From the NCBI GenBank assembly GCA_021234155.1, contig JAJEKV010000005.1:14999468-15063467 (forward strand): a stretch of DNA of 64,000 nt. The letters are read 5' to 3'. Below the pieces are notes generated by a model. That model saw nothing but the letters and a program-made list of their open reading frames with translations, ran no database searches and had not been told where the DNA came from. Origin of the DNA: Isoetes taiwanensis (lineage: Eukaryota > Streptophyta > Lycopodiopsida > Isoetales > Isoetaceae). A program made the translations under genes and the position numbers. Positions 1-47,250 of this stretch are shown here, piece by piece (position 1 is the stretch's first letter; each line of letters starts with the position of its first letter).

Positions 1-290
1 GTTAAATGCCCGTGTACTTATGGCCGGGGAAGGTAAAGAATGCTTTGAAATGAAAAGCAGGCAATCTACATTTTGTGCCTTTAATTCTTGCAAGCGAAGG
101 CTTTGAGGCAATGCAAGCAATGCAAGCAATTATGGACACATGCATGGCGGGGAAATTATTTGAGAGTGCACCATACCCAACTTATGAAGCAATGATGGCA
201 GCATTGTTTAGTAGATGAAAAACTTATGGGGTGTCCGAGCAGTTGGTTAAATCGCTTCCATGTACTTATAGCAGAAATATTTTTGTAAAT
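1..290 (+). pseudogene. PPR-protein E-domain remnant (third copy)
   Basis: This stretch matches 36469-36770 and 18031-18330 closely. In those copies a broken reading frame gives pentatricopeptide-repeat-like text near its C-terminal extension, such as EAVALFSR-like and KTYG blocks. PPR proteins are plant organelle RNA-binding proteins; this is only a decayed fragment with no usable frame. The direct repeat of ATGCAAGCA around 110-130 is shared with the copy at 36590. The element continues off the left edge. The family call is an inference from weak residual similarity. Confidence 0.4.
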
Positions 291-509
291 AAATAGAATA
301 GAGGGAGCTAAGAATACTTGCATAAAGGGTAAAGGAAAAAATTTCGTAAAACCATAATGAAGGCGAACAACTTGGTATATGAAGCAGCCATAAAGTAAGC
401 TAAGGTCAGTATTAAAAAGTTCAATGATTGCCATGGAATTTTGTGATGTCTTGCCACACATGCAATCGGGTGGATCTTCTAATCGAGAAGTAAGGTGAGT
501 CTTCATTCT

Positions 510-2166
510 CCCACGGTAAGTATCCGCCAGACCACACCGATAATTCGATGCTGATGGAGTTGAGGGGTTGCCCCCTCTTCCCACACTCTTTGGCCTATAC
601 ATTGATCGTATATAGGCTGTATGAGGCATGCTGGCCCGTATCACATCGGCGGCCGCGACCGATTGGTGGGTAGCATTGGAGTGCGTCGAGGTTGCCCCCT
701 CTCCCCTCACTCTTTGGCCCCTATACATTGTCCGGTTGGAAGATTGGCTCACGAGGCGGCTCATGCATCCACCTGTCAAGCAACTCATATATATCGCGGC
801 GATGTCAACCTCATGGCCTATACTCCAGGAGGACATGCAGCGTCACCTGGATGCTCTCGACACTTTTGCCAATTCAGCGGCATGCGAGTTAACTTGGCCA
901 AAACCCAAGATGGCGCTAGTTGCATCATCCCGTCGATAAGGCTTCATTTGTTATTCACTTACCGAGGGGCAAGAGGTAAGGTGGCTCCGACCTAATGCCT
1001 TGGGTTGAGTTCTCAACTACCACCACCCATTGGGATCACCAATTTTGTATCGGGGGTGCGGGTCCGCGGCGGGTTAAAGCACTATATGCCATGCTCACCA
1101 CTTGATCACAAAAAGGCGGGATTGTATGCACAGGGCCACCGATCCACATTTGTTTGGGACCTTGGTTGGCCCGGTCCTTTTGTATGGGGCCGAAGTGTGG
1201 GGTCAGGTGATATCCCTCAACACACCGGAATGACCTCGCGGCGGTGCGAGAGGATTCTTGTACGGGAGCCCTGGGGGTTCCATTACCAGATCCTACTCCA
1301 AGGCGGGCTTTACGCCCCTTTCCAGCGGCATTGCATTGGAGCGCCATATCATTTACTTCAAAAGGTGGTGCATTATGGGTTACCGCGCTTGCCCCAACTT
1401 GCTTTGGCCATGGCGATGGGTCCCCAATGCACGAAATCTGTACGGAAAGACAAGCAAGCTCGGTGGTTCTCCCTGGCTATTTGGGGTAATGCGGGGCAAA
1501 GGAGATAGATCAGTCGGGACAAAGAAAGATCGCGAGGCACTTAAAGCGTACCTAGATGCTACTTTCCTTTGCGAGCTGCGGGATCGGAGGAGGCGGCGCG
1601 TGTTAGGCGGCACACTATCGTGACAAGTCAATCCCTAAGCTCACAAAGAGGCCCACACCGGTACTTGTACACCGGTACCCCCGTGAAGAAGCGCCCAGAC
1701 TTATAGCTTCCATTCATGGCGGGGCACATCCATCTCCGCGTTAAGCGAGCGTTGGGCTCGGGAAGCGGAAAGCAAAGAGCTTTGCGGTGTTGCCACCGGC
1801 GATTGAGGATGAATGTCATACCCTCGGTCAGTCCCGGCATTTGCCCATATCGAGGCGATATGTTCGATTACTAGTGCGGCGGTAGTTGCATCGATTATTG
1901 ACTTCTACGGCATGATGGGTTTGTTGGGGTCATACCTCCGAGGAGGTTATGGATGCGGACTCGTTTGTGGCCATCTGGCGGGGCGGTATAAAGCATCTCT
2001 ATGCAATTTCTGATTAATGCCCGGCATGCTTATTCTTGCTAAGGTTTTTCCTCGAAAACCCTTGAGTGAGGGTTTTAATCACTGTCGATGTCATGCTGCT
2101 CTCTTTTTTATTTGGGTCCCATAGGCCAATTGGTCTTAAGTGGGCGCTAAAACCCTATTCTATTCT
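510..2166 (+). mobile_element. LINE fragment, copy A (reverse transcriptase, degraded)
   Basis: This is a 5'-truncated non-LTR retrotransposon, the same insertion as 36984-38635 in the duplicated copy. Fragments of the reverse transcriptase palm survive in shifting frames near 560-950: GCPLSP, a broken Y-A-D-D region, and a LNLAKT-like block. A zinc-knuckle tail is near 1800-1990. The 3' end holds the family hairpin (2041-2080), the block GGGTCCCATAGGCCAATTGG and a short (ATTCT) tail. The flanks read TTCATTCT on the left and AGAATT on the right. The paralogous site at 18751-18766 has TTCATTCTAGAATT with no LINE, so this is a true insertion. Frames are more damaged than in the 36984 copy, often at CAG/CTG positions. 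It cannot encode an active enzyme as given. Confidence 0.85.
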
Positions 2167-2460
2167 AGAATTGTGCGATGTAGTGTTGGATATGTCCTTT
2201 TGGTACAAAGGCATTTTATTTTAGAACTTATTGAAACATGATGATAGTCGTTTTTTTTTTTTAGAATTTGCTTAGTGGCCGGTCCATTATGAATATTGGT
2301 GTTTTGGGTCCGACTTCAGGATTCCGACAAGGAGCAAATTCAAGACCATATATTGGTAAATTTGTTTTGTAGATATCCTAGTAATGTTACTCTTTGTCAA
2401 GAAAAATTATTAATTCTTATTGGACATGCCTATTGCTTTAGAACATGGCTAGGTAATTGT
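2167..2460. repeat. Segment Q duplicate, post-LINE flank
   Basis: This stretch continues the duplicated unit after the LINE. It matches 38636-38950 and 18761-19065 (AGAATT...GATGTAGTG...GGTCCGACTTCA). Homology stops near 2460, where the sequence changes to the PPR fragment. No gene is seen. Confidence 0.8.
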
Positions 2461-2529
2461 TCTGGATCTTTGTCAATATGACCTTGTTTGGAGAAAAGCC
2501 CTCGAATGGCACTTCTTTGTCGAGCTTGA

Positions 2530-7782: not shown

Positions 7783-9756
7783 TTACAGCTCAGAGTGATC
7801 TTCATCTTCTTCCTTCCGAGGCAAAGAACACCGATTTTTGATAAATCTTGGTTATTATCGGATTGCAAACATCCTCAATCTCCTTCAATTTCTCTTCAAA
7901 TCCTCCCCTCAAAGACTTTGGTTATCATCCAACCACTCCACGATTTCCTTCAATTCAACTTCAATCTTTTTCTTTGTCATCGGAATCTAGCTTATCCGCT
8001 AGCTTATCCTTGTCACCAATTGAACTCTTCATGTTGTACACATATGTCTCCAATCTATTCCCCGCATCAATCTTTTCCTTCACCTTCTTATCTTGCTCGC
8101 ATATTCCTCGACCTCCTTGATCATTCTATCAACCTCATCTGAAGATAAACGATCTTTGTCGTGATAATGATGATCTTCTACGCCTTATTGGTCGCCTTAT
8201 CCTCTTGCCTTCACTTTTAGAATTCCATCCGCATCTACTTCAAAAGTAACTTCAATCTGGGGAATACCTCTTGAGCTGGGGCAATACCACTCAAATCAAA
8301 TTTTCCAAGTTCCCGACAATCTTTTGTCAAGCTTCTTTCTCCTTCAAAGACCTGAACAGACACGGTTGTTTGCTTATCCTGATAGGTGCTAAACATTTGG
8401 GATTTTTTAGTTGGAATTGTAGTACCCCTGGGAATGAGCTTTGTCATCACTCCACCAACAGTTTCAATGCCAAGGGTCAAAGGAGTGGCATCAAGGATGA
8501 GTGCATCTTTAGTCTCTTTTTCAGCCTTCCCCACTTAGAATGCCTCCTTGAATACCGCACCATAGGCTCTGACCTCATCGGGATTGACTCCCTTGCTAGG
8601 CTCCTTGCCTTCAAAGTAGTCCTTCAACAATTCTTTGTACCTTTGGGATCACGAGTACTTCCTCCAACAAGAACGATTTCATCAATCTGTGACTTCTTAA
8701 GGCCAGCATCATTCATGGCCTTCCTAACAGGGCCTAATGTCTTCTTGAACAAGTCATTGTTAAGCTCCTCAAACCTTGCTCTGGTAAGTGGTTCAGAGAA
8801 ATCAACACCATCAAAAAGACTCTCAACCTCAATTCTAACTTGGTGCTGGTTACTGAGTGCCCTCTTTGCACGCTCTGCCTCGCGACGGAGTTTTCCAATA
8901 GCCCTGCTATCCTTGCTAATGTCCTTGTTGTACTTCTTCTTGATGAGTTTAATGAAGTGCTCCATTATTCTGTGGTCAAAATCCTCTCCTCCAAGATGAG
9001 TATCACCACTTGTGGCTAAAACTTCAAATACTCCATTATCAATTGTTAAGATGCTGACATCAAAGGTACCACCACCAAGGTCAAACACAAGTATGTTCTT
9101 CTCGTTTCCCTTCTCATTAAGTCCATAAGCCAATGCTGCTGCAGTTGGCTCATTCAGAATACGAGCCACGTTAAGTCCAAAAGAATGATACCAAAGACAT
9201 CATTGAAATAAGCTGGGACAGTGATAACAGCATTTTTTACGACCTTTCCTAAGAATGCCTCGGCAGTTTCCTTCATTTTTATCAAAATCATAGCGCTAAT
9301 CTCCTCTGGGCTGAAGAGCTTAACTTCGCCGTCCTTGATCTTAACTTGTATATAAGGTTTCCCATCTTTGTTGATGATCTTGTAGGGCAATAGTTTCATA
9401 TCATTTTGGACTTCTTTGTCGTCAAACTTCCTTCCAATCAAACGTTTAGGGTCAAAAATTGTCCTTTCGGGGTTAGAAGCAGCTTGGTTCTTGGCTGCCT
9501 CTCCAATGAGCCTTTCAGAATCTGTGAAGGCTACCCAGGAAGGTGTGATTCGATTTCCCTGGTCATTGGCTATGATTTCTACATGCCCATCTTTGTTATA
9601 AACCCCCACACAAGAATATGTTGTTCCGAGATCAATACCAATTACTGTATCTAATTTGGGAGCTTCTTCTGCGCCTGCTGCTACAGATACAACCCAAATT
9701 GTAAGAAAAACCAAGCATAGACCTAATCTGCTAACATGAGCTACTTCCCTCGACAT
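7783..9756 (-). CDS. BiP: BiP, ER-lumenal HSP70 chaperone (intronless; frameshifts in the given sequence)
   Basis: Three long frames join into one HSP70 of about 658 codons, the usual BiP length. BiP is the ATP-dependent chaperone of the ER lumen that folds secretory proteins. The start at 9756 gives a signal peptide ([11 protein letters not shown], then a hydrophobic core ending VSVAAGA). HSP70 signatures follow: [25 protein letters not shown] near 9090, and IVLVGGSTR near 8680. The substrate domain follows ([36 protein letters not shown]), then a C-terminal helical lid. The end is EEDEDHSEL, an ER-retrieval-like signal with S where HDEL has D. There are no introns, although plant BiP genes as I know them have several, so this may be a retrogene. 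Frames break near 9200, 8640-8560, 8250 and several places to 7850. Nearly all breaks fall where conservation predicts CAG or CTG, so they may be consensus errors. A processed pseudogene is the alternative. Confidence 0.9.
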
Positions 9757-10664
9757 TCTCTATTGCCTCTGCTTCTCTTAACACTCTCTTCTGCTTCTGC
9801 TTCTGCTTCTGCTTGTCACCACTCTGCTTCTTTTAAACAAGCAAGGAAAAAGGCAAAGGAAAAGAAACGCAAAAGGGAAAAGGGAAAAGGGAAAAAAAAG
9901 GCAAGCATAAACATACCTATTTTTTCTTCTTGATGAGTTCTTATTGAAGGCAGTTCGATCTAATTCTTTGCTGGGCGATCTGGTGGTGCCTTGGCACGAA
10001 ATGGAAGAATATGGTGATTTTATGCGCAAATACTATATGTCCCTTAAATTCGTTTTGTTGCATATAATAGCAGCATGTAGAGGATTGACAGCATACTGGC
10101 TAACTGTTTCTTTTTGCCAAAAGTGCTGATGTAGTAGGACTATAAGCTGTCTACTGACAATGATGTAGGATATGCGAATACTGTGAATAAGAAGGAGGCT
10201 TTTACATTGTTTGAGAGGATTCACAACATGAAGATCAAATCCTAACTGAGATCATGCATGTAAGCTTTTTCATGCTTGTCTTGCTGCACACGATTTGGTG
10301 GTGGCATCCACCATTGACAATGTCCTGGACCCATTACAATGGCTTCCAATACAGGTATGTCCGTACTCTCCAAAATGATTATGTTTCTGTCTGTTATTTT
10401 TTGCAGAATTTGGAATCCTGCTTTGCATTAATCCTGTAGAAAAGAGCTTTTCAATCTACTTTCGGAACTCCAGATAGATCCCACATCATGATGAATATGA
10501 AGATCTTGCATGTTCACTATGCCTTTTGGCATCTGAATTGGTTACATTTTTTTTTCCACCATAAATTAATCCTGATAGAATAGAATTACCAAATGTTATC
10601 GTTTCCATCCAATTGTCATCAATCTAAAGCAGCATGAAATTAATAGGTAAAGGAAATTCTTTCA
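9757..10664. other. BiP upstream region with TTCTGC hexamer run
   Basis: This lies upstream of the BiP start. On the plus strand 9786-9813 holds about four TTCTGC units, followed by an A/G-rich run at 9838-9905. That is a CT/GA-rich leader type of sequence on the minus strand. I see no clear ER-stress element. No coding similarity was found from 9940 to 10664. Confidence 0.4.
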
Positions 10665-17600: not shown

Positions 17601-17694
17601 TGCAATAATACAAGGATACCACATAAATTATGAAGGTAAGAATGCTTTGAGAAATGACAACGAACCCAATCTACATTTTTATGTCTTCTAACTG

Positions 17695-18330: not shown

Positions 18331-18370
18331 TAGAATAGAGGGGCTAAGAATACTTGCATCTGGGGTAAAG

Positions 18371-18603
18371 ATAGATAGATAGATAGATAGATAGTATTTT
18401 AACGTCACACCACTAGGCAGCATCCAACTGGACATGTGACCACACACCACACTACATTGCTTGGTTGGGCCCTGCCCCCAACCACTTTACATTGCGTCTG
18501 TGGGTTTTGACACCCAATAGTTCAGAGTGCGATTCTGGGCAGTCTCGAACTCGAGACCTATAGTTGCTAGATCTAGTGTGTTACCACTAGACTAAACGCC
18601 CAG
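18371..18603 (-). mobile_element. tRNA-derived SINE
   Basis: Read on the minus strand, the element opens GGGCGTTTAGTCTAGTGG, which holds a pol III A-box-like TAGTCTAGTGG. About 30 bp later comes a B-box-like GAGTTCGAGACT. A tRNA-unrelated body follows, ending GTGACGTTAAAATA and a (TATC)6-like tail. The paralogous site at 36805 lacks it. Insertion here went with loss of about 17 bp of target, and no TSD is visible. Its last about 40 bases resemble the main LINE's 3' end (CCAGTTGG then GACGTTAAAATA; compare 47316-47345 on the minus strand). Confidence 0.85.
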
Positions 18604-18750
18604 CCATAATGAAGGCGAACAACTTGGTATATGAAGCCAGCCATAAAGTAAGCTAAGGTCCAGCAGTAAAGTTCAATGATTGCCATGGGACTGTGATGTC
18701 TTGCCACACATGCAATTCGGGTGGATCTTCTAATCCAGAAATAAGGTGAG

Positions 18751-18766
18751 TCTTCATTCTAGAATT
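18751..18766. other. Empty LINE target site
   Basis: TTCATTCTAGAATT is intact here, whereas a LINE with a 3' (ATTCT) tail interrupts the same point at 510-2166 and 36984-38635. The pre-insertion site already contained ATTCT. Confidence 0.8.
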
Positions 18767-19255
18767 ATTACTGATGTAGTGTTGGATATGTCACTTAGCT
18801 GGTACAAAAAGGCATTTTATTTTAGAACTTATTGAGAAACATGATGATAGTGCATTTTTTTTTAGAATTTGCTTAGTGGCCAGTCCATTATGGATATTGG
18901 TGTTTTGGGTCCGACTTCAAGTTCCAGCAAAGAACAAATTTCAAGACCATATATTAGCCGCTGGTTTTGTAGATACCCTAGTAATGTTGCTACTGTCAAG
19001 AAAAATTATTAATTCTTATTGGACATGCCTATTGCTTTAGAACATGGCTAGGTAATTGTTCTATGTTCTGGTTGCATTTACAAAGCATAAGGAACATGAA
19101 AAAACTACTTGAGTCCGAGATATGAGGATTTGTTGGATTAAAAAAGTCTTCATAATTGGCACTGCATGAAGCTAATGTAGTGATTTTTCATGGCAAAGAA
19201 TAGAGGCTTCATGATTGATAATGCAAATGGCTTACAACACTTGGATAATGCACCT

Positions 19256-19345
19256 TGTGCATGCTCTCTTGCTTAAGATGACAATCTAGAAGAAAAAGAA
19301 TGTGCATGCTCTCTTGCTTAAGATGACAATCTAGAAGAAAAAGAA
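19256..19345. repeat. 45-bp tandem repeat, two units
   Basis: Two identical units (TGTGCATGCTC...AAAAAGAA) are shared with 39130-39219, so the duplication predates the segmental duplication. Confidence 0.85.
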
Positions 19346-19710
19346 TATCATCAATGGTCTGATCAACCAAGCCCTTGAATGCAGATGAAGAAGTTGGAGT
19401 GCCAGATCTGTGAGAATCATGTTGAATTCATTTTCACTGTAAAAATATTATTCTTTTCAATTCCATGACCCATCCTATGTGATAATATACGGCAACAGAG
19501 AGAATTCAAATGCAACAAATCGACTTATAAAATTCACCATGAAAATTTATCTTAGCAAAGAATTAGGCTAACAGATTCCGAATGTTGAAACATAAGTAAA
19601 TTATCAACATCATCATATTTAAGGTCACTAACCAATTAAGAATTGTGTTTTTTTTTCTTTTTCTTTTTTTTTTAATTTTTCATGTCACAGCAAATAGCCA
19701 ATAGCCAATC

Positions 19711-19735
19711 TCCCTCCCTCCCTCCCTCCCTCCCT
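19711..19735. repeat. (TCCC)n microsatellite
   Basis: About six TCCC units stand here, compared with about three at the paralogous position near 42340. It is a length-variable simple repeat. Confidence 0.85.
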
Positions 19736-19979
19736 TTGTTTTCTACATGTTCGCTAGAAGGATAAAATGAAAAGCTACACGAGACACTAGAATCATGGGT
19801 AATTAACTATTATGAAAGAACCTTTCAACTACACTTTTTGTTTAGTAGGATTGCCTAGCCCGATGTGCACGATTTCATGCAATTTTATCTATGCTACGTG
19901 TATGCCACATGTCCGGCCACGTCATACCTGCCCTCCCCCCCAGTGGCTTCGTCTCTTATCTCCTTCGTCTGTTCTACAG

Positions 19980-20819
19980 GTGGTTTTGATAACATCATCT
20001 TCTTACGTGAATTTATGGAGCCTGATTGGGACATGTTCCATGTAAGCTTAAATCAATGCTTTTTCACTAGTTTTTGGTCTTTTGTTTTTTTCACAAAATT
20101 TTGGTGCAGACTCTACATCCCGCAGTAGAATACCATGCTGCAGCTTGTGCTGTCGGAGGATGTGTTGTTTATGTAAAGTATATGCAATGTGGAATGCTCT
20201 TGGAATGTGTCCAGAATTAGATATATATCACTGGTGAGGACTTCAATGCAGGGATAAACCAGACAATCATAACTTTGAGCTGTTAAAGAAACTTGTACTG
20301 CCTGATGGTTCTATACTTTGAGCTCAACTTCCAAACAATACACACTTGTGATTTTCTCTTCTCAGATCCTACACGAGATAAGTCTAGATAATCAAAATTT
20401 ATGGATAGACATGATTTGATTTTATACTTTTGATCATACAACCTTATTGTGAAATTTCTGAACAGCCTGTTAAAGATTTGGAACATGATTAAATATCTGC
20501 TGTAATAGGGGCCTTCAATTGCGAGTACTCCTTGGTGCATAATTGATAAAGTAGCCAAAATGCATCAAAACCCAAAAGTTATAACCGGAGGCATATATGC
20601 ACGAGATGTACCACTTTTGAAAGACATAGTTTGGAAGTGGTTGGAACCATGAGATTGTAGTTTATGGTCACCGCAATGGTGCATTTATGAATCACGCTAT
20701 ATACATGCGTCCATTCGGGTTCTTTACATTTAGTTCTCTCCGCGGAAGAGTTAGTCGTCTTCCAAGAAGTGCAGCTCTGCCAATTACTCTGGAAGTTCTG
20801 AACTTCGAAATAGAATAGT
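19980..20819 (+). pseudogene. Raffinose synthase/SIP1-type (GH36) pseudogene, copy 1
   Basis: C-terminal exons of a plant raffinose-synthase/alkaline-alpha-galactosidase (SIP1) family member, which transfers or hydrolyses galactosyl groups in the cytosol. Exon 19980-20041 reads FLREFMEPDWDMFH with an AG acceptor and GTAAGC donor; the DWDMF motif is a family hallmark. Exon 20110-20178 reads TLHPAVEYHAAACAVGG. Exon from 20252 reads NHNFELLKKLVLPDGSIL, then hits TGA where the family has CGA (R), then LLKIWNM near 20470 and LPRSAAL near 20760, stopping at 20817. Stops and shifts make it non-functional. Earlier exons are absent. The introns show it was copied as DNA, not from mRNA. The paralogue is 42601-43439. 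Confidence 0.85.
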
Positions 20820-22122
20820 ACCATTGAAGACAAATTATATGTTTATTATTGAACCTAGAATTTGCTATTTCTGCGAATTAACATTCTACAAGCCTGGATT
20901 TGCAGAATTTAACTTCTGGTTTGTTCTTTGCTTCAATTGGCCTTCTAAAAATGTATTAACTCTGGAGGGGCCATACAGTCACTTGAATATAAGAATCTAG
21001 CTAAACCAAATGATGAATCTGCCAACTGCATTGAACCAAATGATACATCTTCACCCCAACACAACCTCCACTCCAACCTCCACCCCACCCTGCATTTCCG
21101 CTAGTTTCTATATGACGAACATAAACATAAAATAGAATGCGTGCGAAGCTACATTTGAACACGAAAATTATCGTTGAGACTCTAGATTGTTGTCTCTTTG
21201 CATGTACAAAGATTCAACCAGGATGGACTTGACTACATGGTTGCAACAATGTATTGAATAGCCAATGCGTTCTTTCGGCATCGTACCCATATTATGGGCC
21301 CCAACTAAGCAAATGGCATTCCATCTTCGCTCTGGTTGGCTCTTCTGGTGATTTGAAAATGTCACAAACTCCATGTATTTCATGGCAACCATTCATTTGT
21401 TGGTGATTTATTTTTGATGCCCATACGAAGATGCTTATAAGTGCTGATTTATGCCATCCGGTACCCAACTTAAGGAAACAATTGCATCTCACATTTCTAA
21501 CTATAAGGGCAGATGTCTTTCAGAAACACTACATGAAAGTGAAACACTATATGAGAGTGATTGTGCAGATGTTGCTTGAGTTCTGCTGGCGTCGAGAGCA
21601 CGGGGCCGTCTGACAGAAGAAATGAAGACATGACTGTTGTCATGCGACGCCTTTTAACCACACAAAAGAAGAAGCACAAAAGAAGAAGCATGTACAACAT
21701 TCTCCATCATGAAACCACTACAGATTTGCCCTGTTGACATGCCATGAATGGCGTGTGGATTGCCACTTCTGTAACGTGGAAGACAGAGAGGTGCAATTCA
21801 ACATCCCAGAATGCTAAGTAGAATCCCTGGGGTAAACACAACAGAATGCAAGGTAAACTGCTGCAGTAAAAAATGTCGACTGACATTCCTGAAAGGAAAC
21901 GTGCCACGTAGCAGAGCATGATAGGCAGATGGGGATGAATTAATCCAATGATCATAAAAATAATAGAGCAAATGGGGAAACGAAGAAAAAAGGGGAACCC
22001 GTCAGACTGCCCACTGACCTTCAGCAGTGGAGGAATGTACCACTGTGACGGTCATCTATGGCCTACACTTCACAAGGAAGAGTAGAACCGGCAATCGCGC
22101 TCAAGCCAGCAGGCTCCACTTC
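20820..22122. other. Intergenic part of segment Q, no gene seen
   Basis: Matches 43440-44726 closely. It holds a C-rich stretch (21055-21095) and two near-repeats of AAACACTA-ATGA at 21520-21555. ORFs here carry no recognisable family. I see nothing else. Confidence 0.5.
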
Positions 22123-25100
22123 ATCGTCCGGGTTGTGAGATTTGTCTATGCATTTTTAGCATAGTTCCTAGTACGAACTATAGAACAGATCCTGTTCAAG
22201 TATAGTCGTGCTCATGTATGCTCTGATGTTGTTTATATATTGATGGATGCCTGTGGGATATAGATTTTATACTGTGCAGACCTTGCCGGATTCCTTCTAA
22301 GTCACTGATTGAGCATCATCACACATCTTGCTATCAACCAAGACAGCGGCAGGACTATTCTGTAGCAGGTCGGCATCAAGTATGTTAATTTTTTACCCCC
22401 TTTTTCTTTTCTTTATTTTTCCGTTTATGATTGGTACTTCTCTGTGCAAATACTCTTTCTCACATGATCTGCTGCTCCTCTGTGCAAAATAACCATGCAA
22501 CAATGATGAGCAGTGCAGTGCAAGATATACCTGGATGAATAAGAGCCTAACTGCTAATACAAAGGAAGGATTTTTTATGAGAGGTTCTTTTGTTTGGCTT
22601 TAGGTGCATCAAGCATTGAAGTAAATGCTCAATTTGACCTAGTAACTATTGACATGGAAATAGTTTCTAGGCTAGGATCGACGTCCCGAGATGATTGGTT
22701 ACACCTTTGAGTAGCATATGAGATAAAGGTGCTGAGGCAAAATATATAATAAAAAGGGCAGACGAGTTCATGTAATGACAACCTTGTGTGGCCTGTCTGG
22801 TTAGATGGGGGGATCTATTACGTGCATCTCTCTGTGCCTATTTGGTGTCACTGTGCTTAACCAAAATGCAAGTAAGCTTTTGCTTTACTACATTTTGCAG
22901 CTATAAAGTTGAGATAAATTGTCATATTTTTGTTGAAGAATAATGATCAATCTTTGTGAGTAGAACTATTTGGAGCAAAATATGTGGAATTGGTACAGAT
23001 CAGTGACAGGTTCAACATCAATTTATGATTAAGGCATCTGCACTCAACATATGGCGTCCTGGCCATGTTGGCCTCAACTATTAAGTCTGCACTTGCAACC
23101 AATAGGCTTAGTTGCATGAAGATTTTAGATAGCATTTTTATTAATATCATACTCTGTTGTTCAAGATTATTGAGATATTATGAAACTGCGCATATGCTTG
23201 AAATCCTTCCCTTACTGTAATTTTGACTGTCTTGAGCTATTTTTGGGGTGTTCTTGGGTTGTCAACGGCTTGCCATGTCTGCAAAACGTGGTATGGAATA
23301 ATGCAAAATTGGTCAAATGAATTTATCTGTTGGAGCTTATTCATAGCATAGTTGGTTGCCTCAAGGCGCATAAGATCTTTAATATCCTAATGTGGACATA
23401 CTATCTTCATTATCCTGAAGCATCATTCTTCTGTAAGATTGATTCTTCCATAAGATCTTGGAGTTGATCAACACGCAAACAGAATAGATACTGCTTAAAG
23501 ATTCCATCAAGCTTCCAAATATCAGTTAACTTATGGAGTTTGGTCTACCATGGTAATAATAAAGGGAAGCAGTCATGCTTTGAAGTAAGTCCCTTTTATT
23601 TTCAGCACCCAAAATAATCAATTGTTTAGCTATGTTTAGGACCATGGCAAATTGCCATCATGCTTGCAAATTATGTTTGTTGGCATTCATGCTGGCCTCA
23701 AATATTTGTAAGTTTGCACTTGTAGCCAATATGCTTAGTGGCATGAAGATTTTAGATGACATTTTTATTTTCTTTGTTTGCATTTATTTTGGTTTACACT
23801 TGGCTCAGATCTTCAGTATTGAGGTGATTTTTGCATGAGTCTATTGTTTATGCATGATCTTAAACATATTTGAGGGCAAAGAAGTGGGCCCATATTATAT
23901 GCCCGGAATTGGAGAATGTTTCCAGTTAAAATCATGGCGGTGGTAATTAATAGGAATTTTAACAACCAAATTATATGTCTGAGACTAAAGAGGCGTTACA
24001 GCATTGGGACATGCATATATGTTACAAATGCATTAAGTTGCTTCAGAGGTATTTAATATTTCTTTCTAGCTATATCATTTAGGCCCTCTTTTTAGAAGTT
24101 TCTCTTATCGGACATGCCTATTCAATAGTCTACAGTTGTAGCCTGTTCTAGAACCTTTTACGCATTTCTCAAGGCCATTAGGTGTTAGATCGTAACATCT
24201 GACTCTTTGTTAATGAGATTTGTTTAAGATACAAATGCTATTATCATGGGTTTGATTATTGTTTTGGATTTGTAAATACTTTCTCAATGTGAGATCTCAT
24301 TTAAATTTTATGGAGCTTTAAGCCTAATACTCTTGCTCCATCTTGACAGGGTATTCGCTTGAGTGCTCTACTAAAAACTCGTAGACATAATCTGGGTTCT
24401 GAATAATACGGTAAGTCCTAACTGTTGATTATCAGCTCTGATGTAGACAAGTTGGGGAGTAGACAAACTTCCATATGATATGACTTTGCAACTGTGAGTT
24501 TTCTTCAATTTAGAGGTTTTCCAATTCATGGGTAATATTTCTAGCTTGTGAAATATGTCCTTTGCGGGATAGAGTTTGAATCTCATTTATGTATTCCCGT
24601 GTATATTTCACACACTGCAATACTTGCAAGGAAATTCTTGCATTGAAACAATTGTAAAAAGAGGGCCTAGAAAGAGGGGAAATTAGACAATTAGGTTTGC
24701 CACAAAATCCCCTTCACGTTTTAACTCCAAAACAAAAAGCGGGTCTAAAGAAAATTCTTGGAGGACCTGGTTTTGTTGAAACTGTAAATGTTTTTACCTT
24801 CTGCATGGAAATGCTTTCCAAGCTGAATTCAGCATGATGCATGGGGCTAAAAGCTTATTCTGTTGGAGTGTTAATACACATCATTGAGGATTCAACAATT
24901 TATTGGTTTGTTTTGTAACATATCCAAGGTTTAGATTATCTATGCAAATTATCTCAATTTGCTAGGTGTTTGCCTCTAGCTTTCTTACACTCTTGTGTCA
25001 AGTTTCTTATGTTTAATTTATGGATGTTCGAAGGTTTTGGCACTGTTGAAGCGTGCATAATATATGTACAACAACCTTCTATGTAGCATTAACATGCAAA

Positions 25101-25553
25101 ATATATATGAGATCAGCAATATCTAACACGTTTTAAAGATTTACATTCGCATGAGTTTATTCCATCACCTATGACAAATTCACCCATGCATGTGTATCAT
25201 AAAAAGAATGGCTATTTCCAAATGATCTATTGGTCTTCAATAACGGGGCTATCATTCAAGCAGTCTATTGATTTTCACACCTTGAATATGCCATTCTGTG
25301 AAATAAAAACTAGCAAAACTTTATAAACATTAAAAATATGCAAAAAAAAGTCTGTGTACCACTATTAATCCTTTCTTGTATACCATCTCTTCTATTATGG
25401 AAATTTACAATTGCATAGTACCAGCTCTATATTTTCTATACGATATGCAATTGTTAAACTGGCACTTCAACAAAGGTGATGAGCACCATGTAGTTTTATA
25501 ATGTAGGCTCTTATAACAACAATCAACAATCTGTAGCACAATCATATACACAT
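22123..25553. repeat. 3.43-kb tandem block, unit 1
   Basis: Starts ATCGTCCGGGTTGTGAG and ends ACACATAT. Unit 2 follows directly at 25554-28997, and a third copy, truncated at the point equivalent to about 24660, is at 44727-47250. Inside, 23065-23145 and 23680-23775 are diverged copies of one about 100-bp sequence (GGCCTCAA, TTTGCACTTG, GCATGAAGATTTTAGAT). No coding similarity was found. Unit 1 has the cleaner CAG/CTG positions and lacks a 15-bp piece (GTTCAAAGATTTATT-like) near 22240. Confidence 0.9.
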
Positions 25554-28500
25554 ATCGTCCGGGTTGTGAGATTTGTCTATGCATTTTTAGCATAGTTCCT
25601 AGTACGAACTATAGAACAGATCCTGTTCAAGTATAGTCGTGCTCATGTATGCTCTGATGTTGTTTATATATGTTCAAAGATTTATTGATGGATGCCTGTG
25701 GGATATAGATTTTATACTGTGCAGACCTTGCCGGATTCCTTCTAAGTCACTGATTGAGCATCATCACACATCTTGCTATCAACCAAGACAAATGGCAGGA
25801 CTATTCTGTAGCGGTCGGCATCAAGTATGTTAATTTTTACCCCCCTTTTTCTTTTCTTTATTTTTCCGTTTATGATTGGTACTTCTCTCAAAATACTCTT
25901 TTCTCACATGATCTGCTGCTCCTCATTGCAAAATAACCATGCAACAATGATGAGCAAAGCGATTACAAGATATACCTGGATGAATAAGAGCCTAACTGCT
26001 AATACAAAGGAAGGATTTTTTATGAGAGGTTCTTTTGTTTGGCTTTAGGTGCATCAAGCATTGAAGTAAATGCTCAATTTGACCTAGTAACTATTGACAT
26101 GGAAATAGTTTCTAGGCTAGGATCGACGATCCGAGATGATTGGTTACACCTTTGAGTAGCATATGAGATAAAGGTGCTGAGGCAAAATATATAATAAAAA
26201 GGGCAGACGAGTTCATGTAATGACAACCTTGTGTGGCCTGTCTGGTTAGATGGGGGATCTATTACGTGCATCTCTCTGCCTATTTGGTGTCATCCTGTGC
26301 TTAACCAAAATGCAAGTAAGCTTTTGCTTTACTACATTTTGCAGCTATAAAGTTGAGATAAATTGTCATATTTTTTGTTGAAGAATAATGATCAATCTTT
26401 GTGAGTAGAACTATTTGGAGCAAAATATGTGGAATTGGTACAGATCAGTGACAGGTTCAACATCAATTTATGATTAAGGCATCTGCACTCAACATATGGC
26501 GTCCCGGCCATGTTGGCCTCAACTATTAAGTCTGCACTTGCAACCAATAGGCTTAGTTGCATGAAGATTTTAGATAGCATTTTTATTAATATCATACTCT
26601 GTTGTTCAAGATTATTGAGATATTATGAAACTAGCGCGATATGCTTGAAATCCTTCCCTTCTTGTAATTTTGACTGTCTTGAGCTATTTTGGGGTGTTCT
26701 TGGGTTGTCAACGGCTTGCCATGTCTGCAAAACGTGGTATGGAATAATGCAAAATTGGTCAAATGAATTTATCTGTTGGAGCTTATTCATAGCATAGTTG
26801 GTTGCCTCAAGGCGCATAAGATCTTTAATATCCTAATGTGGACATACTATCTTCATTATCCTGAAGCATCATTCTTCTCGTAAGATTGATTCTTCCATAA
26901 GATCTTGGAGTTGATCAACACGCAAAAAGAATAGATACCGCTTAAAGATTCCATCAAGCTTCCAAATATCGCTTAACTTATGGAGTTTGGTCTACCATGG
27001 TAATAATAAAGGGAAGCAAAATCATGCTTTGAAGTAAGTCCCTTTTATTTTCAAAGCACCCAAAATAATCAATTGTTTAGCTATGTTTAGGACCATGGCA
27101 AATTGCCATCATGCTTGCAAATTATGTTTGTTGGCATTCATGCTGGCCTCAAATATTTGTAAGTTTGCACTTGTAGCCAATATGCTTAGTGGCATGAAGA
27201 TTTTAGATGACATTTTTATTTTCTTTGTTTGCATTTATTTTGGTTTACACTTGGCTCAGATCTTGATGATTGAGGTGATTTTTGCATGAGTCTATTGTTT
27301 ATGCATGATCTTAAACATATTTGAGGGCAAAAGAAGTGGGCCCATATTATATGCCCTAATTGGAGAATGTTTCCGCTTAAAATCATGGCGGTGGTAATTA
27401 ATAGGAATTTTAACAACCAAATTATATGTCCGAGACTAAAGAGGCGTTACATTGAGACATGCATATATGTTACAAATGCATTAAGTTGCTTCAGAGGTAT
27501 TTAATATTTCTTTCTAGCTATATCATTTAGGCCCTCTTTTTAGAAGTTTCTCTTATCGGACATGCCTATTCAATAGTCTGATTGTAGCCTGTTCTAGAAC
27601 CTTTTACGCATTTCTCAAGGCCATTAGGTGTTAGATCGTAACATCTGACTCTTTGTTAATGAGATTTGTTTAAGATACAAATGCTATTATCATGGGTTTG
27701 ATTATTGTTTTGGATTTGTAAATACTTTCTCAATGTGAGATCTCATTTAAATTTTATGGAGCTTTAAGCCTAATACTCTTGCTCCATCTTGACAGGGTAT
27801 TCGCTTGAGTGCTCTACTAAAAACTCGTAGACATAATCTGGGTTCTGAATAATACGGTAAGTCCTAACTGTGATTATCACTCGATGTAGACAAGTTGGGG
27901 AGTAGACAAACTTCCATATGATATGACTTTGCAACTGTGAGTTTTCTTCAATTTAGAGGTTTTCCAATTCATGGGTAATATTTCTAGCTTGTGAAATATG
28001 TCCTTTGCGGGATAGAGTTTGAATCTCATTTATGTATTCCCGTGTATATTTCACACACTGCAATACTTGCAAGGAAATTCTTGCATTGAAACAATTGTAA
28101 AAAGAGGGCCTAGAAAGAGGGGAAATTAGACAATTAGGTTTGCCACAAAATCCCCTTCACGTTTTAACTCCAAAACAAAAAGCGGGTCTAAAGAAAATTC
28201 TTGGAGGACCCGGTTTTGTTGAAACTAGAATGTTTTACCTTACGCATGGAAATGCTTTCCAAGCCGAATTCAAAGATGATGCATGGGGCTAAAAGCTTAT
28301 TCTGTTGGAGTGTTAATACACATCATTGAGGATTCAACAATTTATTGGTTTGTTTTGTAACATATCCAAGGTTTAGATTATCTATGCAAATTATCTCAAT
28401 TTGCTAGGTGTTTGCCTCTAGCTTTCTTACACTCTTGTGTCAAGTTTCTTATGTTTAATTTATGGATGTTCGAAGGTTTTGGCACTGTTGAAGCGTGCAT

Positions 28501-28997
28501 AATATATGTACAACAACCTTCTATGTAGCATTAACATGCAAAATATATATGAGATCAGCAATATCTAACACGTTTTAAAGATTTACATTCGCATGAGTTT
28601 ATTCCATCACCTATGACAAATTCACCCATGCATGTGTATCATAAAAAGAATGGCTATTTCCAAATGATCTATTGGTCTTCAATAACGGGGCTATCATTCA
28701 AGCAGTCTATTGATTTTCACACCTTGAATATGCCATTCTGTGAAATAAAAACTAGCAAAACTTTATAAACATTAAAAATATGCAAAAAAAAGTCTGTGTA
28801 CCACTATTAATCCTTTCTTGTATACCATCTCTTCTATTATGGAAATTTACAATTGCATAGTACCAGCTCTATATTTTCTATACGATATGCAATTGTTAAA
28901 CTGGCACTTCAACAAAGGTGATGAGCACCATGTAGTTTTATAATGTAGGCTCTTATAACAACAATCAACAATCTGTAGCACAATCATATACACATAT
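25554..28997. repeat. 3.43-kb tandem block, unit 2
   Basis: Nearly identical to 22123-25553. I count about 29 differences, most at CAG or CTG in unit 1, for example CAGCACC against CAAAGCACC and CAGTT against CGCTT. From about 28290 to the end the two units look identical. Either a recent tandem duplication or a false duplication in the assembly would explain this. Confidence 0.9.
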
Positions 28998-29624: not shown

Positions 29625-30019
29625 GAATACGCTATGCTGAGTTGGTCCGTCCTGGCCAGCCCCCGCATGAGATGTTGAGCACGAGCTCGATACGGAGGTT
29701 GGGATCATATCTTCAAGAGATTATGGATCGCCGACATCAGCTCAGTCTTTGGGCACTTACCTGATACATGTATATATCTCTGTCCCCCATAATATATTTG
29801 TCTTTGTATTTGTACATTTTGACAAGAAACCTGTTCCTGTGGTTTTCCCCCAAATAACCCTTCGGGGCGGGGAGGGGTTTTTTTTAACCTGGACAGTAAT
29901 AACTTGTTGCACCTCCTGTTTGGGTCCCATAGGCCAATTGGTATCCGTGGACAATAAAAACTCTATTCTATTCTATTCTATTCTATTCTATTCTATTCTA
30001 TTCTATTCTATTCTATTCT
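29625..30019 (+). mobile_element. LINE 3' end with (ATTCT)11 tail
   Basis: Starts in ORF2 text RYAELVRPGQP (29630-29665), followed by EMLSTSSI and GSYLQEIMD. The stop region, the hairpin CCCTTCGGGGCGGGG (29860-29875), GGGTCCCATAGGCCAATTGG (29922-29941) and GTGGACAATAAAA then come before about 11 ATTCT units (29964-30019). It is the same insertion as 5085-5532. Confidence 0.9.
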
Positions 30020-30043: not shown

Positions 30044-30048
30044 ATTAG
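30044..30048. other. Copia target-site duplication, left
   Basis: ATTAG directly precedes the TG of the 5' LTR. It recurs at 34370-34374 after the 3' LTR, and the uninterrupted site is at 5562-5566. Confidence 0.9.
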
Positions 30049-30393
30049 TGTCGAGATATATGATATCGAGATCACCATCTTGTCGCTTGACAAAGATCGA
30101 CAAAGACTCAAAGACAGAGAGGTCGACTATGTCTTGACTCAAAGACTTCATCAAGACACTACACCAGCCCACCCACTTGCCTTAATTAGCTACGGCACCG
30201 ACTTGCCTTAATTAGTTACGGCATAATTATGTGTGGTTGGTAACGGGAGCAGTTATTATCTACTGCCCCTTTTTATATCTTGTATTCATACATACGCTGA
30301 ATACAATTCCATTTTGCTTTTGTTTTGGGAGCTTGCGCTCTCGAATTCGAGCCTGTGCATCCCTTTCTCTCCGCTCTTGGTGCAACCTTGACA
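30049..30393 (+). repeat. Copia 5' LTR
   Basis: TG...CA termini. It differs from the 3' LTR at about nine places. In the first 110 bp all lie where the 3' LTR has CAGCAC, GCTG or CTG (five CAGCA sites become CAAAGA-like or CAAGAC), and the remaining 230 bp are almost identical. Confidence 0.95.
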
Positions 30394-34011: not shown

Positions 34012-34030
34012 ACCTCTCATCAAGGAGGAG
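34012..34030 (+). other. Polypurine tract
   Basis: AAGGAGGAG ends directly at the TG of the 3' LTR, as expected for the plus-strand primer of a copia element. Confidence 0.75.
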
Positions 34031-34369
34031 TGTCGAGATATATGATATCGAGATCACCATCTTGCTGCTTGACAGCACTGACAGCACTCAGCACAGAGGT
34101 GCTGACTATGTGCTGACTCAGCACTTCATCAGCACCTACACCAGCCCACCCACTTGCCTTAATTAGCTACGGCACCGACTTGCCTTAATTAGTTACGGCA
34201 TAATTATGTGTGGTTGGTAACGGGAGCAGTTATTATCTACTGCCCCTTTTTATATCTTGTATTCATACATACGCTGAATACAATTCCATTTTGCTTTTGT
34301 TTTGGGAGCTTGCGCTCTCGGAATTCAGTGTGCATCCCTTTCTCTCCCGTTCTTGGTGCAACCTTGACA
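34031..34369 (+). repeat. Copia 3' LTR
   Basis: 339 bp, TG...CA, followed by ATTAG. It has five CAGCAC-type words in its first 110 bp, intact, in contrast with the 5' LTR. Confidence 0.95.
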
Positions 34370-36124: not shown

Positions 36125-36765
36125 CTTTCATTGGCACTGATTTGATCAACATGTATGCAAAAGGTGGCTTTCAGAGACAGGGGATGACTTTCATAATATG
36201 GTGGCCCAAGATGTTTCACCAGAATATGCAATAATACATCTGTGCCTTCTAACTGCTTGCAAAGAAAGGCCTGGGTATTTTTGAGGCAATGCAAGCAACT
36301 ATGGAACTATACATAACATACATAGATTGATGTTCTTGCATGATCAAGACAATGCATGAAACAGGAAAATTACTTGAGATCGCACCATGCCCACCTTCTG
36401 AAGAAGCAGGGGCAGCTTTGTTTAGTAGATGCAAAACTTATGGGGAGGCACCTTGCCAGAAAGATTGGTTAAATGCCCCGTGTACTTATGGCCCAGGAAG
36501 GTAAGAATGCTTTGAGAAATGAAAACGAACCCAATCTACATTTTTGTGCCTTTTAATTCTTGCAAACGAAGGCTTTGAGGCAATGCAAGCAATGCAAGCA
36601 ATTATGGACACATGCATGAAGCAGGGAAATTATTTGAGATTGCACCATGCCCAACTTATGAAGCAGCAGTGGCAGCATTGTTTAGTAGATGAAAAACTTA
36701 TGGGGTGTCAGAACAGATTGGTTAAATGCTGCTTCCCATGTACTTATGGCAAGTATTTTTGTAAA
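36125..36765 (+). pseudogene. PPR-protein remnant, copy 2
   Basis: Near-identical to 17695-18330, with the same LINMYAKGG, EIAPCPPSEEAG and SRCKTYGE text and the same internal duplication. Here and at 110-130 the word ATGCAAGCA is tandemly doubled, which links this copy to 1-290 rather than to 18130. Confidence 0.6.
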
Positions 36766-36983
36766 TAAATAGAATAGAGGGGCTAAGAATACTTGCATCT
36801 GGGGTAAAGGAAAAAGGCTGTAAAAACCATAATGAAGGCGAACAACTTGGTATATGAAGCCAGCCATAAAGTAAGCTAAGGTCCAGCAGTAAAGTTCAAT
36901 GATTGCCATGGGACTGTGATGTCTTGCCACACATGCAATTCGGGTGGATCTTCTAATCCAGAAGTAAGGTGAGTCTTCATTCT

Positions 36984-38635
36984 CCCACACAGGCCGTATC
37001 ACATCGGCAGCACAGCCGATGGTCAGTAGCATTGGAGTTCAGGGTTGCCCCCTCTTCCCACACTCTTTGGCCTATACATTGATCAGTATATAGGCTGTAT
37101 GAGGCATGCTCAGGCCGTATCACATCGGCAGCACAGCCGGTGGTCAGTAGCATTGGAGTGCGTCAGGGTTGCCCCCTCTCCCCCTCACTCTTTGGCCTAT
37201 ACATTGATCAGTTGGAAGATTGGCTCTCTGAGACAGCTCATGCATCACACAATCCGGCAACTCATATATGCTGACGATGTCAACCTCATGGCCTATACTC
37301 CAGAGGACATGCAACGTCACCTGGATGCTCTCGACACTTTTTGCCAATTCACTGGCATGCGAGTTAACTTGGCCAAAACTAGGGTGCTGCTAGTTGCATC
37401 ATCCCGTCAGCCAAGGCTTCCCACATTCACTTACCAGGGGCAAGAGGTAGAGGTGGCTCCGACCTACAAGTACTTGGGGATTGAGTTCTCAACTACCACC
37501 CATTGGGATGCGGCCGTCGGGTTATGGGTCACTGGCGGGTTGGAAAGCACTATATGCCATGCAACAACAATCCACAAGGCAGAGTTGTATGCCTGGGGCC
37601 ACCAGTCACATTTGTTTCGGGCCTTGGTTGAGCCGGTCCTTTTGTATGGGGCGTAAGTGTGGGGTCCGTGATATCCCTCAACACTGGAATGACCTCGGCA
37701 GTGCGAAGGCCTTCTTGGCACGGGCCCTAGGGGTAAAGTCCACAGCCCGCACTGATCCTACTCCAGAGACGGGCTTTACGCCCTTTCAACGGGCTGCATT
37801 GGAACGCCATATCATTTACTTCCAAAAGGTGGTCGCTATGGCTGATACACGCTTGCCCCAACTTGCTTTGGCCATGGCGATGGGTCCCCAATGCCCCAAA
37901 TCCTCTTGAAAGACAAGCAAGCTCGGTGGTTCTCACGCTGGGTGTGCGTGCAAACAGATGCGTCTGTGTCGGGGACAAAGAAAGATCGCGAGGCACTTAA
38001 ACCGTACCCTAGATGCTACTTTCCTTTGCAAGCTCACGGGATGCGAGGCTCGACGCATGTTAAGGCGGCACACTATCGCCAGTTAAGTCAATCCCTACGC
38101 TCACAAGAGGCCCACACCAAGATTTGTACACCCAACCGCCCATGAAGAAGCGCAGACTTATAGCTTCCATTCGCGACGGGTGCACATCGCCCGCGATGAA
38201 ACAGGGCGTTGGGGCTCCGGGAAGCACGAGAGCAAAGGCTTTGCCCGGTGTTGCCACCGGTAGCGATTGAGGATGAATGTCATGCCCTCCGGATCTGCCC
38301 AGCATTTGCCCATATCCGAGAGCGATATGTTCGATTACTAGTGCCTGGCCAGCCGTTGCATCGCTTATTGACTACGGCATCGGGGGGTTTGTTGGGGTCA
38401 TACCTCCGGAGGTTATGGATGCACGGACTTCGTTTGTGTCCTCGCTGGGACGGTATTAAACCGTCCTATGCAATTGTATGCAGTGTGCCAAAGATGCTTA
38501 TTACTTTGCTAAGGTTTTTCCTCGAAAACCCTTCTGGGTGGGGTTTTAATCCGTCGATGTACGCTTGTCGCTCTCTTTTGTTTGGGTCCCATAGGCCAAT
38601 TGGTCTCCGTGGACGCTAAAAACCTATTCTATTCT
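36984..38635 (+). mobile_element. LINE fragment, copy C (best RT of this insertion)
   Basis: The same insertion as 510-2166, better preserved. From 37045 the RT palm reads GVRQGCPLSP-like text (37150-37190), YADDVNLMAYTPEDMQRHLD (37267-37325), GMRVNLAKTRVLL and YKYLGIEF (37468-37490). After that come a thumb/connection region to about 37910 and a C-terminal zinc knuckle ending IEDECHALRICPAFAHIRERY (38265-38330). RT copies element RNA at a nicked target. About 36990-37085 and 37105-37205 are a tandem duplication within the element, present also at 540-760. The 3' end has the hairpin (38517-38555), GGGTCCCATAGGCC and two ATTCT units. It is broken by frameshifts and inactive. Confidence 0.9.
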
Positions 38636-39225
38636 AGAATTATTACTGATGTAGTGTTGGATATGTCACTTAGCTGGTACAAAAGGCATTTTATTTTAGA
38701 ACTTATTGAGAAACATGATGATAGTGCGTTTTTTTTTAGAATTTGCTTAGTGGCCAGTCCATTATGAATATTGGTGTTTTGGGTCCGACTTCAAGTTCCA
38801 GCAAAGAACAAATTTCAAGACCATATATTAGCCGCTGGTTTTGTAGATATCCTAGTAATGTTGCTACTGTCAAGAAAAATTATTAATTCTTATTGGACAT
38901 GCCTATTGCTTTAGAACATGGCTAGGTAATTGTTCTATGTTCTGGTTGCATTTACAGAGCATAAGGAACATGAAAAAACTACATGAGTCTGAGATATAAA
39001 GATTTGTTGGATTAAAAAAGTCTTCATAATTGGCACTGCATGAAGCTAATCTAGTGATTTTTCATGGCAAAGAATAGAGGCTTCATGATTGATAATGCAA
39101 ATGGCTTACAACACTTGGATAATGCACCTTGTGCATGCTCTCTTGCTTAAGATGACAATCTAGAAGAAAAAGAATGTGCATGCTCTCTTGCTTAAGATGA
39201 CAATCTAGAAGAAAAAGAATATCAT
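38636..39225. repeat. Segment Q, post-LINE flank
   Basis: Matches 18761-19350 and in part 2167-2460. It includes the 45-bp tandem repeat at 39130-39219. No gene is seen. At 39226 the two Q copies diverge, because the next 2.8 kb is absent from copy 1. Confidence 0.8.
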
Positions 39226-39583
39226 CAATTAAACATTAACAATCTCTATCTAGGTCCAAAAAGTTCACGAGCCTTTATGAAAGACTGAGGTTGCTTTTCA
39301 AAGACTAGATTTAATGGCAGGGCATTTAAATTGATCTTTATTGCAGGTATATGCTTTTGACTATATTTGTGTTTGTGGTAAATTAGGAATTGTTTCTTAC
39401 CCTTTTAGATCTGGAAGCCTTTTTGTAGTTGTATAAGTCATGATTATGAGAAGCCACTAGAGTTGCATTGTAACACAATATTCATGGGAAAGGAAAGCAA
39501 TTTCCGACTGTTAATTTTTTTCTCTCTACAGAAATGCTTTGCATGTTCTAATGTTGATTTGTTGAAGTTGCAAACGTAGATAT

Positions 39584-44726: not shown

Positions 44727-47250
44727 ATCGTCCGGGTTGTGAGATTAGTCTATGCATTTTCAGCATAGTTCCTAGTACGAACTATAGAACAGATCCTGTT
44801 CAAGTATAGTCGTGCTCATGTTTGCTCTGATGTTGTTTATATATGTTCAAAGATTTATTGATGGATGCCTGTGGGATATAGATTTTATCTTGTCTGCGGA
44901 CCTTTGCCTGATTCCTTCTAAGTCACCGATTGAGCATCATCACACATCTTGCTATCAACCAAGACAAATGCGGGACTATTCTCAGAAAGCGTGTCGGCAT
45001 CAAGTATGTTCTTTTGAAACCCCCTTTTTCTTTTTCTTTATTTTTCCGTTTATGATTGGTACTTCTACATTGCAAATACCCTTTCTCACATGATCTGCTT
45101 TGCCTCCTCGTGCAAAATAACCATGCAACAATGATGAGCGGTCAAATTCAAGATATACTGATGAATAAGAGCCTAACTGCTAATACAAAGGAAGGATTTT
45201 TATGAGAGGTTCTTTTGTTTGGCTTTAGGTGCATCAAGCATTGAAGTAAATGCTCAATTTGACCTAGTAACTATTGACATGGAAATAGTTTCTAGGCTAG
45301 GATCGACGTCCCGAGATGATTGGTTGCACCTTTGAGTAGCATATGAGATAAAGGTGTTGAGGCAAAATATATAATAAAAAGGGCAGACGAGTTCATGTAA
45401 TATGACAACCTTGTGTGGCCCGTCTGCGGTTAGATGGGGGATCTATTATGTGCATCTCTCTTGGTGTCATCAGGCTTAACCAAAATGCAAGTAAGCTTTG
45501 CTTTACTACATTTTGCAGCTATAAAATTGAGATAAATTGTCATATTTTTGTTGAAGAATAATGATCAATCTTTGTGAGTAGAACTATTTGGAGCAAAATA
45601 TGTGGAATTGGTACATATCAGTGACAGGTTCAACATCAATTTATGATTAAGGCATCTGCACTCAACATATGGCGTCCTACTATTAAGTCTGCACTTGCAA
45701 CCAATAGGTTTAGTTGCATGAAGATTTTAGATAGCATTTTTATTTGTATCATACTCTGTTGTTCAAGATTGTTGAGATATTATGAAACTGCGCATATGCT
45801 TGAAATCCTCCCCTTACTGTAATTTTGACTGTCTTGAGCTATTTTTGGGGTGTTCTTGGGTTGTCAACGGCTTGCCATGTCTGCAAAACGTGGTATGGAA
45901 GAATGCAAAATTGGTCAAATGAATTTATCTGTTGGAGCTTATTCATAGCATAGTTGGTTGCCTCAAGGCGCATAAGATCTTTAATATCCTAATGTGGACA
46001 TACTATCTTCATTATCTTGGAGCATGATTCTTCTGTAAGATTGATTCTTCCATAAGACCTTGGAGTTGATCAACACGCAAACAGAATAGATACTGCTTAA
46101 AGATTCCATCAAGCTTCCAAATACCAGTTAACTTATGGAGTTTGGTTTACCATGGTAATAATAAAGGGAAGCAGTCATGCTTTGAAGTAAGTCCCTTTTA
46201 TTTTCAGCACCCAAAATAATTAATTGTTTAGCTATGTTTAGGACCACGGCGAATTGCCGTCATGCTTGCAAATTATGTTTGTTGGCATTCATGCTGGCCT
46301 CAAATATTTGTAAGTTTGCACTTGTAGCCAATATGCTTAGTGGCATGAAGATTTTAGATGACATTTTTATTTTCTTTGTTTGCATTTATTTTGGTTACAC
46401 TTGGCTCAGATCTTCAGTATTGAGGTGATTTTTGCATGAGTCTGTTGTATATGCATGATCTTAAACATATTTGAGGGCAAAGAAGTGGGCCCATATTATA
46501 TGCCCGGAATTGGAGAATGTTTCCAGTTAAAATCATGGCTGTGGTAATTAATAGGAATTTTAACAACCAAATTATATGTCTGAGACTAAAGAGGCGTTAC
46601 AGCATTGGGACATGCATATATGTTACAAATGCATTAAGTTGCTTCAGAGCTATTTAATATTTCTTTCTAGCTATATCATTTAGGCCCTCTTTTTAGAAGT
46701 TTCTCTTATCGGACATGCCTATTCAATGGTCTGCAGTTGTAGCCTGTTCTAGAACCTTTTACGCATTTCTCAAGGCCATTAGGTGTTAGATCGTAACATC
46801 TGACTCTTTGTTAATGAGATTTGTTTAAGATACAAATGCTATTATCATGGGTTTGATTATTGTTTTGGATTTGTAAATACTTTCTCAATGTGAGATCTCA
46901 TTTAAATTTTATGGAGCTTTAAGCCTAATACTCTTGCTCCATCTTGACAGGGTATTTGCTTGAGTGCTCTACTAAAAACTCGTAGACATACTCTGGGTTC
47001 TGAATAATATGGTTGTTGATTATCAGCTCTGATGTAGACAAGTTGGGGAGTAGACAAACTTCCATATGATATGACTTTGCAACTGTGAGTTTTCTTCAAT
47101 TTAGAGGTTTTCCAATTCATGGGTAATATTTCTAGCTTGTGAAATATGTCCTTTGCGGGATAGAGTTTGAATCTCATTTATGTATTCCCGTGTATATTTC
47201 ACACACTGCAATACTTGCAAGGAAATTCTTGCATTGAAACAATTGTAAAA
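44727..47250. repeat. 3.43-kb block, third (truncated) copy
   Basis: Matches 22123 to about 24660, then stops at AACAATTGTAAAA, where the LINE region begins. It is more diverged than units 1 and 2 are from each other, with ordinary substitutions throughout. A locally scrambled stretch at 44885-45480 again sits on CAG/CTG words. Confidence 0.85.

Follow-up and report, generated by a model that had tools for sequence, protein, structure and literature searches.

One-way scrambling of CAG/CTG triplets in a tandem copy of an Isoetes taiwanensis locus, probably a nanopore consensus artefact

In a 64,000-nucleotide stretch of the Isoetes taiwanensis assembly (GCA_021234155.1, contig JAJEKV010000005.1, positions 14,999,468 to 15,063,467 of the forward strand; hereafter the window), the second of two adjacent 3.4-kb copies has lost CAG and CTG triplets (together abbreviated CWG) that the first copy retains (Table 1). 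Because the same scrambling recurs in patches and breaks the frames of a conserved gene, it is read here as an artefact and not as biology: very probably, unit 2 is a nanopore consensus in which CAG/CTG were miscalled at 5mC in the CHG context and were left unrepaired by short-read polishing. A consensus error at one trinucleotide class had been proposed in an initial annotation of the sequence, and the proposal is supported by the one-way direction of the loss, by a third copy that marks unit 2 as the odd one, by recurrence at unrelated loci, by the broken frames, by the patchiness of the damage and by the apparent nanopore basis of the assembly.

Table 1. Features of the window compared in the analysis, in window coordinates
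Feature	Coordinates	Strand	Description
LINE-like copy	1..2463	+	CAG/CTG-poor (31); partner 36468-38936
BiP/HSP70 gene, 3' half	7786..8656	-	frames broken, residues between breaks BiP-like; 12 CWG in 865 bp
BiP/HSP70 gene, 5' half	8657..9759	-	frame open except for a short loss near 9200; 33 CWG in 1109 bp
Upstream stretch	19355..22122	.	weaker CWG loss relative to partner 41996-44726
Unit 1	22123..25553	.	CAG/CTG look intact; 2 of the 70 three-way clusters private to it, 0 at CWG
Unit 2	25554..28997	.	tandem copy, CAG/CTG scrambled; 28/77 unit-1 CWG altered; 12 of its 18 private clusters at CWG that units 1 and 3 retain
5' LTR of Copia-like element	30047..30393	+	CAG/CTG scrambled; 10/15 CWG of the 3' LTR altered
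3' LTR of same Copia-like element	34029..34369	+	CAG/CTG intact by comparison
LINE-like partner	36468..38936	+	67 CAG/CTG; compared with 1-2463
Third copy	44727..47250	.	matches 22123-24659; arbiter of which unit changed; partly scrambled near 44889-45470; CWG low in the 2 kb starting at 45 kb

BLAST matched 22123-25555 with 25554-28997 at 97.5% identity, so that the coordinates first given for the two adjacent copies were right, as were all five differences quoted as examples (at 23570, 23603, 23524, 24768 and 24132). The initial annotation had further counted about 29 differences and had placed well over two thirds of them at CAG/CTG; the clustering and the enrichment hold, whereas the count and the share were off. 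Full global alignment yielded 102 differing columns in 37 clusters, a number that depends on the alignment (37, 38, or 41-42 under four other scoring schemes), and the share at CWG is about two thirds: 26 of 38 clusters touch a CWG of unit 1 (mean 3.5 and maximum 9 for shuffled clusters in 400 trials), as do 27 of 41-42 under the four other schemes. CWG of unit 2 are touched by 2 clusters, with 2.5 expected. CWG loss between the units is one-way, with 24 clusters against 0. Counting bases inside and outside CAG/CTG on the full alignment, as had been suggested, gave the same enrichment: viewed from unit 1, 39/231 bases changed within CWG and 33/3200 outside (Fisher p = 4e-28), and viewed from unit 2, 1/153 within and 84/3291 outside. 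Per site, 28 of the 77 unit-1 CWG are altered in unit 2 compared with 4.7% of all triplets; that no more than these 28 were altered counts against the miscall reading.

The changes in unit 2 comprise insertions, deletions and multi-base scrambles, with CAG becoming CAAAG, CGC or CAAA and CTG becoming CCG or being deleted, and CpG is gained nearby at 15 of the 28 altered sites. Ordinary CpG triplets are barely altered (ACG/CGT 1/27, TCG/CGA 0/16), CCG/CGG is altered at 3/18, and CCWGG sites are altered too, 2/3 in unit 2 and 4/5 in the LINE-like copy. Under the first of the other scoring schemes, 14 clusters fall off CWG; sorted by hand, 6 of them are homopolymer lengths, matching the other main class of ONT error, 4 sit directly beside a CTG and 2 within CCCG, and the last two are a lone base change and a 14-bp indel. 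Real mutation, with methylated CHG cytosines of unit 2 deaminated once the duplication had occurred, would strike the same sites but should leave a C-to-T majority, and unit 2 has none: aligned base changes comprise 28 transitions and 27 transversions, beside many small indels. The first description of the changes as small insertions and scrambles, not C-to-T, was accurate in this respect, and deamination is a very improbable account of unit 2.

A third, roughly 5% divergent copy (BLAST) allows the direction of change to be assigned. In the three-way alignment, which contains 70 difference clusters, 38 are private to the third copy, of which 5 are losses of CWG kept by units 1 and 2, and in 12 all three copies differ. 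With 18 private clusters in unit 2 and 2 in unit 1, and with 12 of the 18 destroying CWG present in both other copies, it is unit 2 that stands out as changed, not unit 1. Ordinary divergence of a duplication was rejected on the same figures, since the changes are not shared alike between the units either in CWG loss (24 and 0) or in private clusters (18 and 2). The third copy has itself lost CWG: compared with unit 1, 20 of 59 clusters touch unit-1 CWG (5.9 expected) and 10 touch third-copy CWG (4.5 expected). Units 1 and 3 are underlain by a larger duplication with insertions breaking it, 16571-24659 versus 35006-47250.

The small remainder of differences bears on whether unit 2 exists at all. 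Once clusters that touch or adjoin CWG, or that lie in CCCG or homopolymers, are set aside, the units differ only by the 14-bp indel and one base change, although the third copy is some 5% away, and they join with a 2-bp overlap. Both observations would be expected of a false tandem duplicate, in which a single real 3.4-kb locus entered the assembly two times, the second copy deriving from unpolished reads or the other haplotype, an account that is compatible with miscalling. The 14 bp themselves, however, occur in both unit 2 and the third copy but not in unit 1, and unit 2 is therefore not simply unit 1 copied with errors; a second haplotype and a very young real duplication could both fit. 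The region is also rich in other duplications (a BiP copy lies 44 kb upstream, for example), so that a young real duplication is plausible, and a false duplicate is best regarded as a tentative possibility, somewhat on the improbable side. The 14-bp gap of unit 1 (within the region 22200-22290; compare 25631-25735 and 44804-44908) lies just upstream of the minus-strand U3 snoRNA gene of that unit, where the missing bases would be flanked by a CCCACA-type element and a TATA-like box. The window contains two plant U3 snoRNA genes, in keeping with a plant origin, and the junction of units 1 and 2 falls inside a U3 snoRNA gene (25528-25640), leaving a truncated match of 50.5 bits (gathering score 80).

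The same loss is seen at unrelated loci of the window. Within the Copia-like element, 7 of the 9 clusters separating the LTRs lie at CWG of the 3' LTR (2.3 expected, shuffle maximum 7), and the change of CAG to CAAAG recurs in the 5' LTR. The LINE-like copy at 1-2463 has 61 of the 67 CWG of its partner altered, on top of real divergence, and the partner has lost CWG too, with 25 of 131 clusters at CWG of 1-2463 (10.9 expected). The upstream stretch at 19355-22122 is separated from its partner by 79 clusters; 20 touch partner CWG (8.5 expected, maximum 17) and, in the opposite direction, 10 touch CWG of the stretch itself (8.4 expected). Four other pairs in the window (starts 16571, 18753, 5562 and 3047) gave no clear CWG excess. 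CAAAG, the recurrent product in unit 2 and in the LTR, is not recurrent in the LINE-like copy, and it correlates with low CWG within the window. Among the 32 segments of 2 kb tiling the stretch, 7 have CWG below z = -2.5, against at most 2 for any other triplet; ordered by spread of z, CAG/CTG comes third, not first. The trend of CpG with CWG within the window was not significant (Spearman -0.14, p 0.26). Pentanucleotide arrays (ATTCG, TCTAT) occur at 5433-5531, 29962-30019 and 63758-63890 and may, as a guess, be the tails of LINE-like elements.

Comparison of all six frames of unit 1 with Pfam found no family, and the BiP/HSP70 gene of the window was therefore taken as the coding yardstick. 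In a frame-tolerant alignment against human BiP, its 3' half contains 8 frame shifts and 3 in-frame stops. Across the assembly this gene has at least 40 matches, counting the one in the window, that are 90-96% identical to the window's copy; they are mostly clustered on a few contigs (C1068, C1055, C910 and C1029), an unusually large family for a chaperone gene. Ten of the 40 matches were compared, the window's copy among them (L029 was excluded, being identical with the copy in the window, and the L031 piece exceeds the rest in length, as it takes in a second match). Of 186 private clusters, 102 touch CWG (27.6 expected, maximum 44 in 1000 shuffles), and in 54 of these 102 the length is altered, which again argues against deamination; private clusters at CWG create a new CAAAG/CTTTG in 11 cases and a new CG in 39. 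Every one of the ten copies departs from the majority at CWG bases 2.7 to 7.2 times as often as at others, and the damaged patch occupies a different part of the gene in different copies; the window's copy, for instance, reads TACAAAGAAT where the majority reads TACAGCAAT.

Copy L031, although itself off the majority at 12 of 69 CWG sites, is the sole one of the ten with a full-length frame, of 665 residues. In the other nine the longest frame is between 142 and 468 residues long, and in the majority sequence it is 470, broken near the same loss as in the window's copy. Counted by triplet, 167 of 626 CWG are altered and 773 of 16,875 CWG-free triplets, and CCG/CGG, also a CHG site, is altered at 29/100 and CGA/TCG at 47/230. 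The damaged class in the BiP genes is wider than CWG alone, and this counts against a miscall confined to CWG. Copy L033 has 34 private clusters, only 6 of which change length, and several are plain changes of CAG to CAA and of CTG to CTA or TTG; in contrast to the scrambles, these look like real CHG deamination and speak in its favour.

A biological process, of whatever kind, that rewrites CAG/CTG locally with small insertions and scrambles would match damage that is site-specific, one-way and patchy. Such a process, however, must shift the frame of a conserved chaperone out and in again while the residues between the breaks stay conserved, and must do so at different places in each BiP copy; the apparent technology of the assembly, moreover, has a known error of the same form. 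We regard biological rewriting as exceedingly improbable.

The reach of the phenomenon was gauged in the assembly at large (1,658,258,908 bases in 1110 contigs), from twenty 10-kb stretches placed at hand-chosen round coordinates on seven contigs and thus not random. Five stretches (L012, L018, L021, L024 and L026) had no window with 200 N or fewer, and the other 15 provided 75 windows of 2 kb. Here no triplet was depleted as often as CWG, which lay below z = -2.5 in 23 of the 75 windows, the next triplets reaching 6. CAAAG, taken as an error marker, showed neither an excess nor a correlation with low CWG in the 75 windows. Direct-repeat pairs within the sampled stretches were 4 in all, too few for weight; of their 86 clusters 23 lay at CWG, with 15 on the richer side and 6 on the poorer. 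In CWG-poor windows, CAA/TTG and CTA/TAG are slightly raised, as deamination would have it, and some real deamination is therefore likely. CpG observed/expected in these windows is nonetheless 0.70 versus 0.50, richer and not poorer, and this, together with scrambles that change length, led to the rejection of simple deamination as the main cause.

CAG/CTG is the CHG site favoured by plant CMT3-type enzymes, and these triplets are the main CHG methylation sites of plants. A basecaller untrained on 5mC in the CHG context would miscall methylated CAG/CTG in most reads, and such miscalls would survive racon. Pilon would then correct them only where short reads place uniquely, and unique placement, and hence correction, would fail between near-identical sequences, for instance units 1 and 2 or the forty BiP genes. 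Unit 1 would have received the correction and unit 2 none, probably through ambiguous read placement; gap filling with raw reads could add further scrambled patches, and the other scrambled patches of the window and of the assembly may reflect the same process. We infer the nanopore origin of the reads, the CHG methylation of the sites and the failure of polishing as the maker of patches; excerpts of the genome paper accord with parts of this, describing nanopore R9.4.1 sequencing, basecalling with Guppy 3.1 flip-flop, assembly with miniasm, and the use of racon and of Pilon with Illumina reads, with gaps filled by LR_Gapcloser and haplotigs purged, and reporting 1658.30 Mb in 204 scaffolds and 909 contigs (PMC8566536). 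The word 'methylation' is absent from the main text of that paper.

If scrambles at one motif are scattered in patches through a reference genome, they will produce false pseudogenes, false divergence between duplicates, a false depletion of CAG/CTG, and LTR pairs that seem too old. The BiP family, with one full-length frame among ten copies and 102 of 186 private changes at CAG/CTG, illustrates this. One-way loss of a motif between near-identical copies is a test that needs the assembly only, and it could be used to screen other nanopore plant genomes. It is enticing to speculate that the pattern of destroyed CWG constitutes a partial record of CHG methylation, the patches and copies with scrambled triplets marking DNA that was CHG-methylated in the sequenced tissue and that polishing did not reach. 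This seems to us rather unlikely; if true, the assembled sequence by itself could yield a coarse methylome and a list of genes that only seem broken.

The open-licence literature on nanopore errors, in the titles and abstract openings of the matches listed, describes no CAG/CTG scrambles in a plant assembly, nor do passages of PMC7501810, PMC10027222 and PMC8514461. The scrambling seems to belong to a class of artefact already known, and it stands out for how far it extends through what appears to be a published plant reference. One related case is the ONT work on plants read with general basecallers, where excerpts hold that differences in plant methylation are likely to underlie a loss of accuracy (Ferguson et al. 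2022, PMC9749173); that loss concerns the accuracy of reads, unlike the motif-specific damage in a finished assembly seen here, and CHG, CAG and CTG are absent from the main text. Another is that of modification-mediated ONT errors, for which excerpts of Chiou et al. (2023, PMC10687267) report that untrained modifications lead to systematic assembly errors, as proposed here, and that amplification removes them; these, however, were bacterial isolates corrected with close reference genomes. A third is that of the errors at Dcm sites: excerpts of Wick et al. (2019, PMC6591954) report that, with default ONT models, the Dcm motif CCAGG/CCTGG accounted for about 70% of consensus errors, with homopolymers next, and attribute this to training data without that methylation. 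There as here, errors pile up at a motif of the form C-W-G, a 5mC motif in the Dcm case and probably one here, followed by homopolymers; the Dcm case concerns bacteria and a 5-base motif, whereas the present one concerns a plant and CAG/CTG in general.
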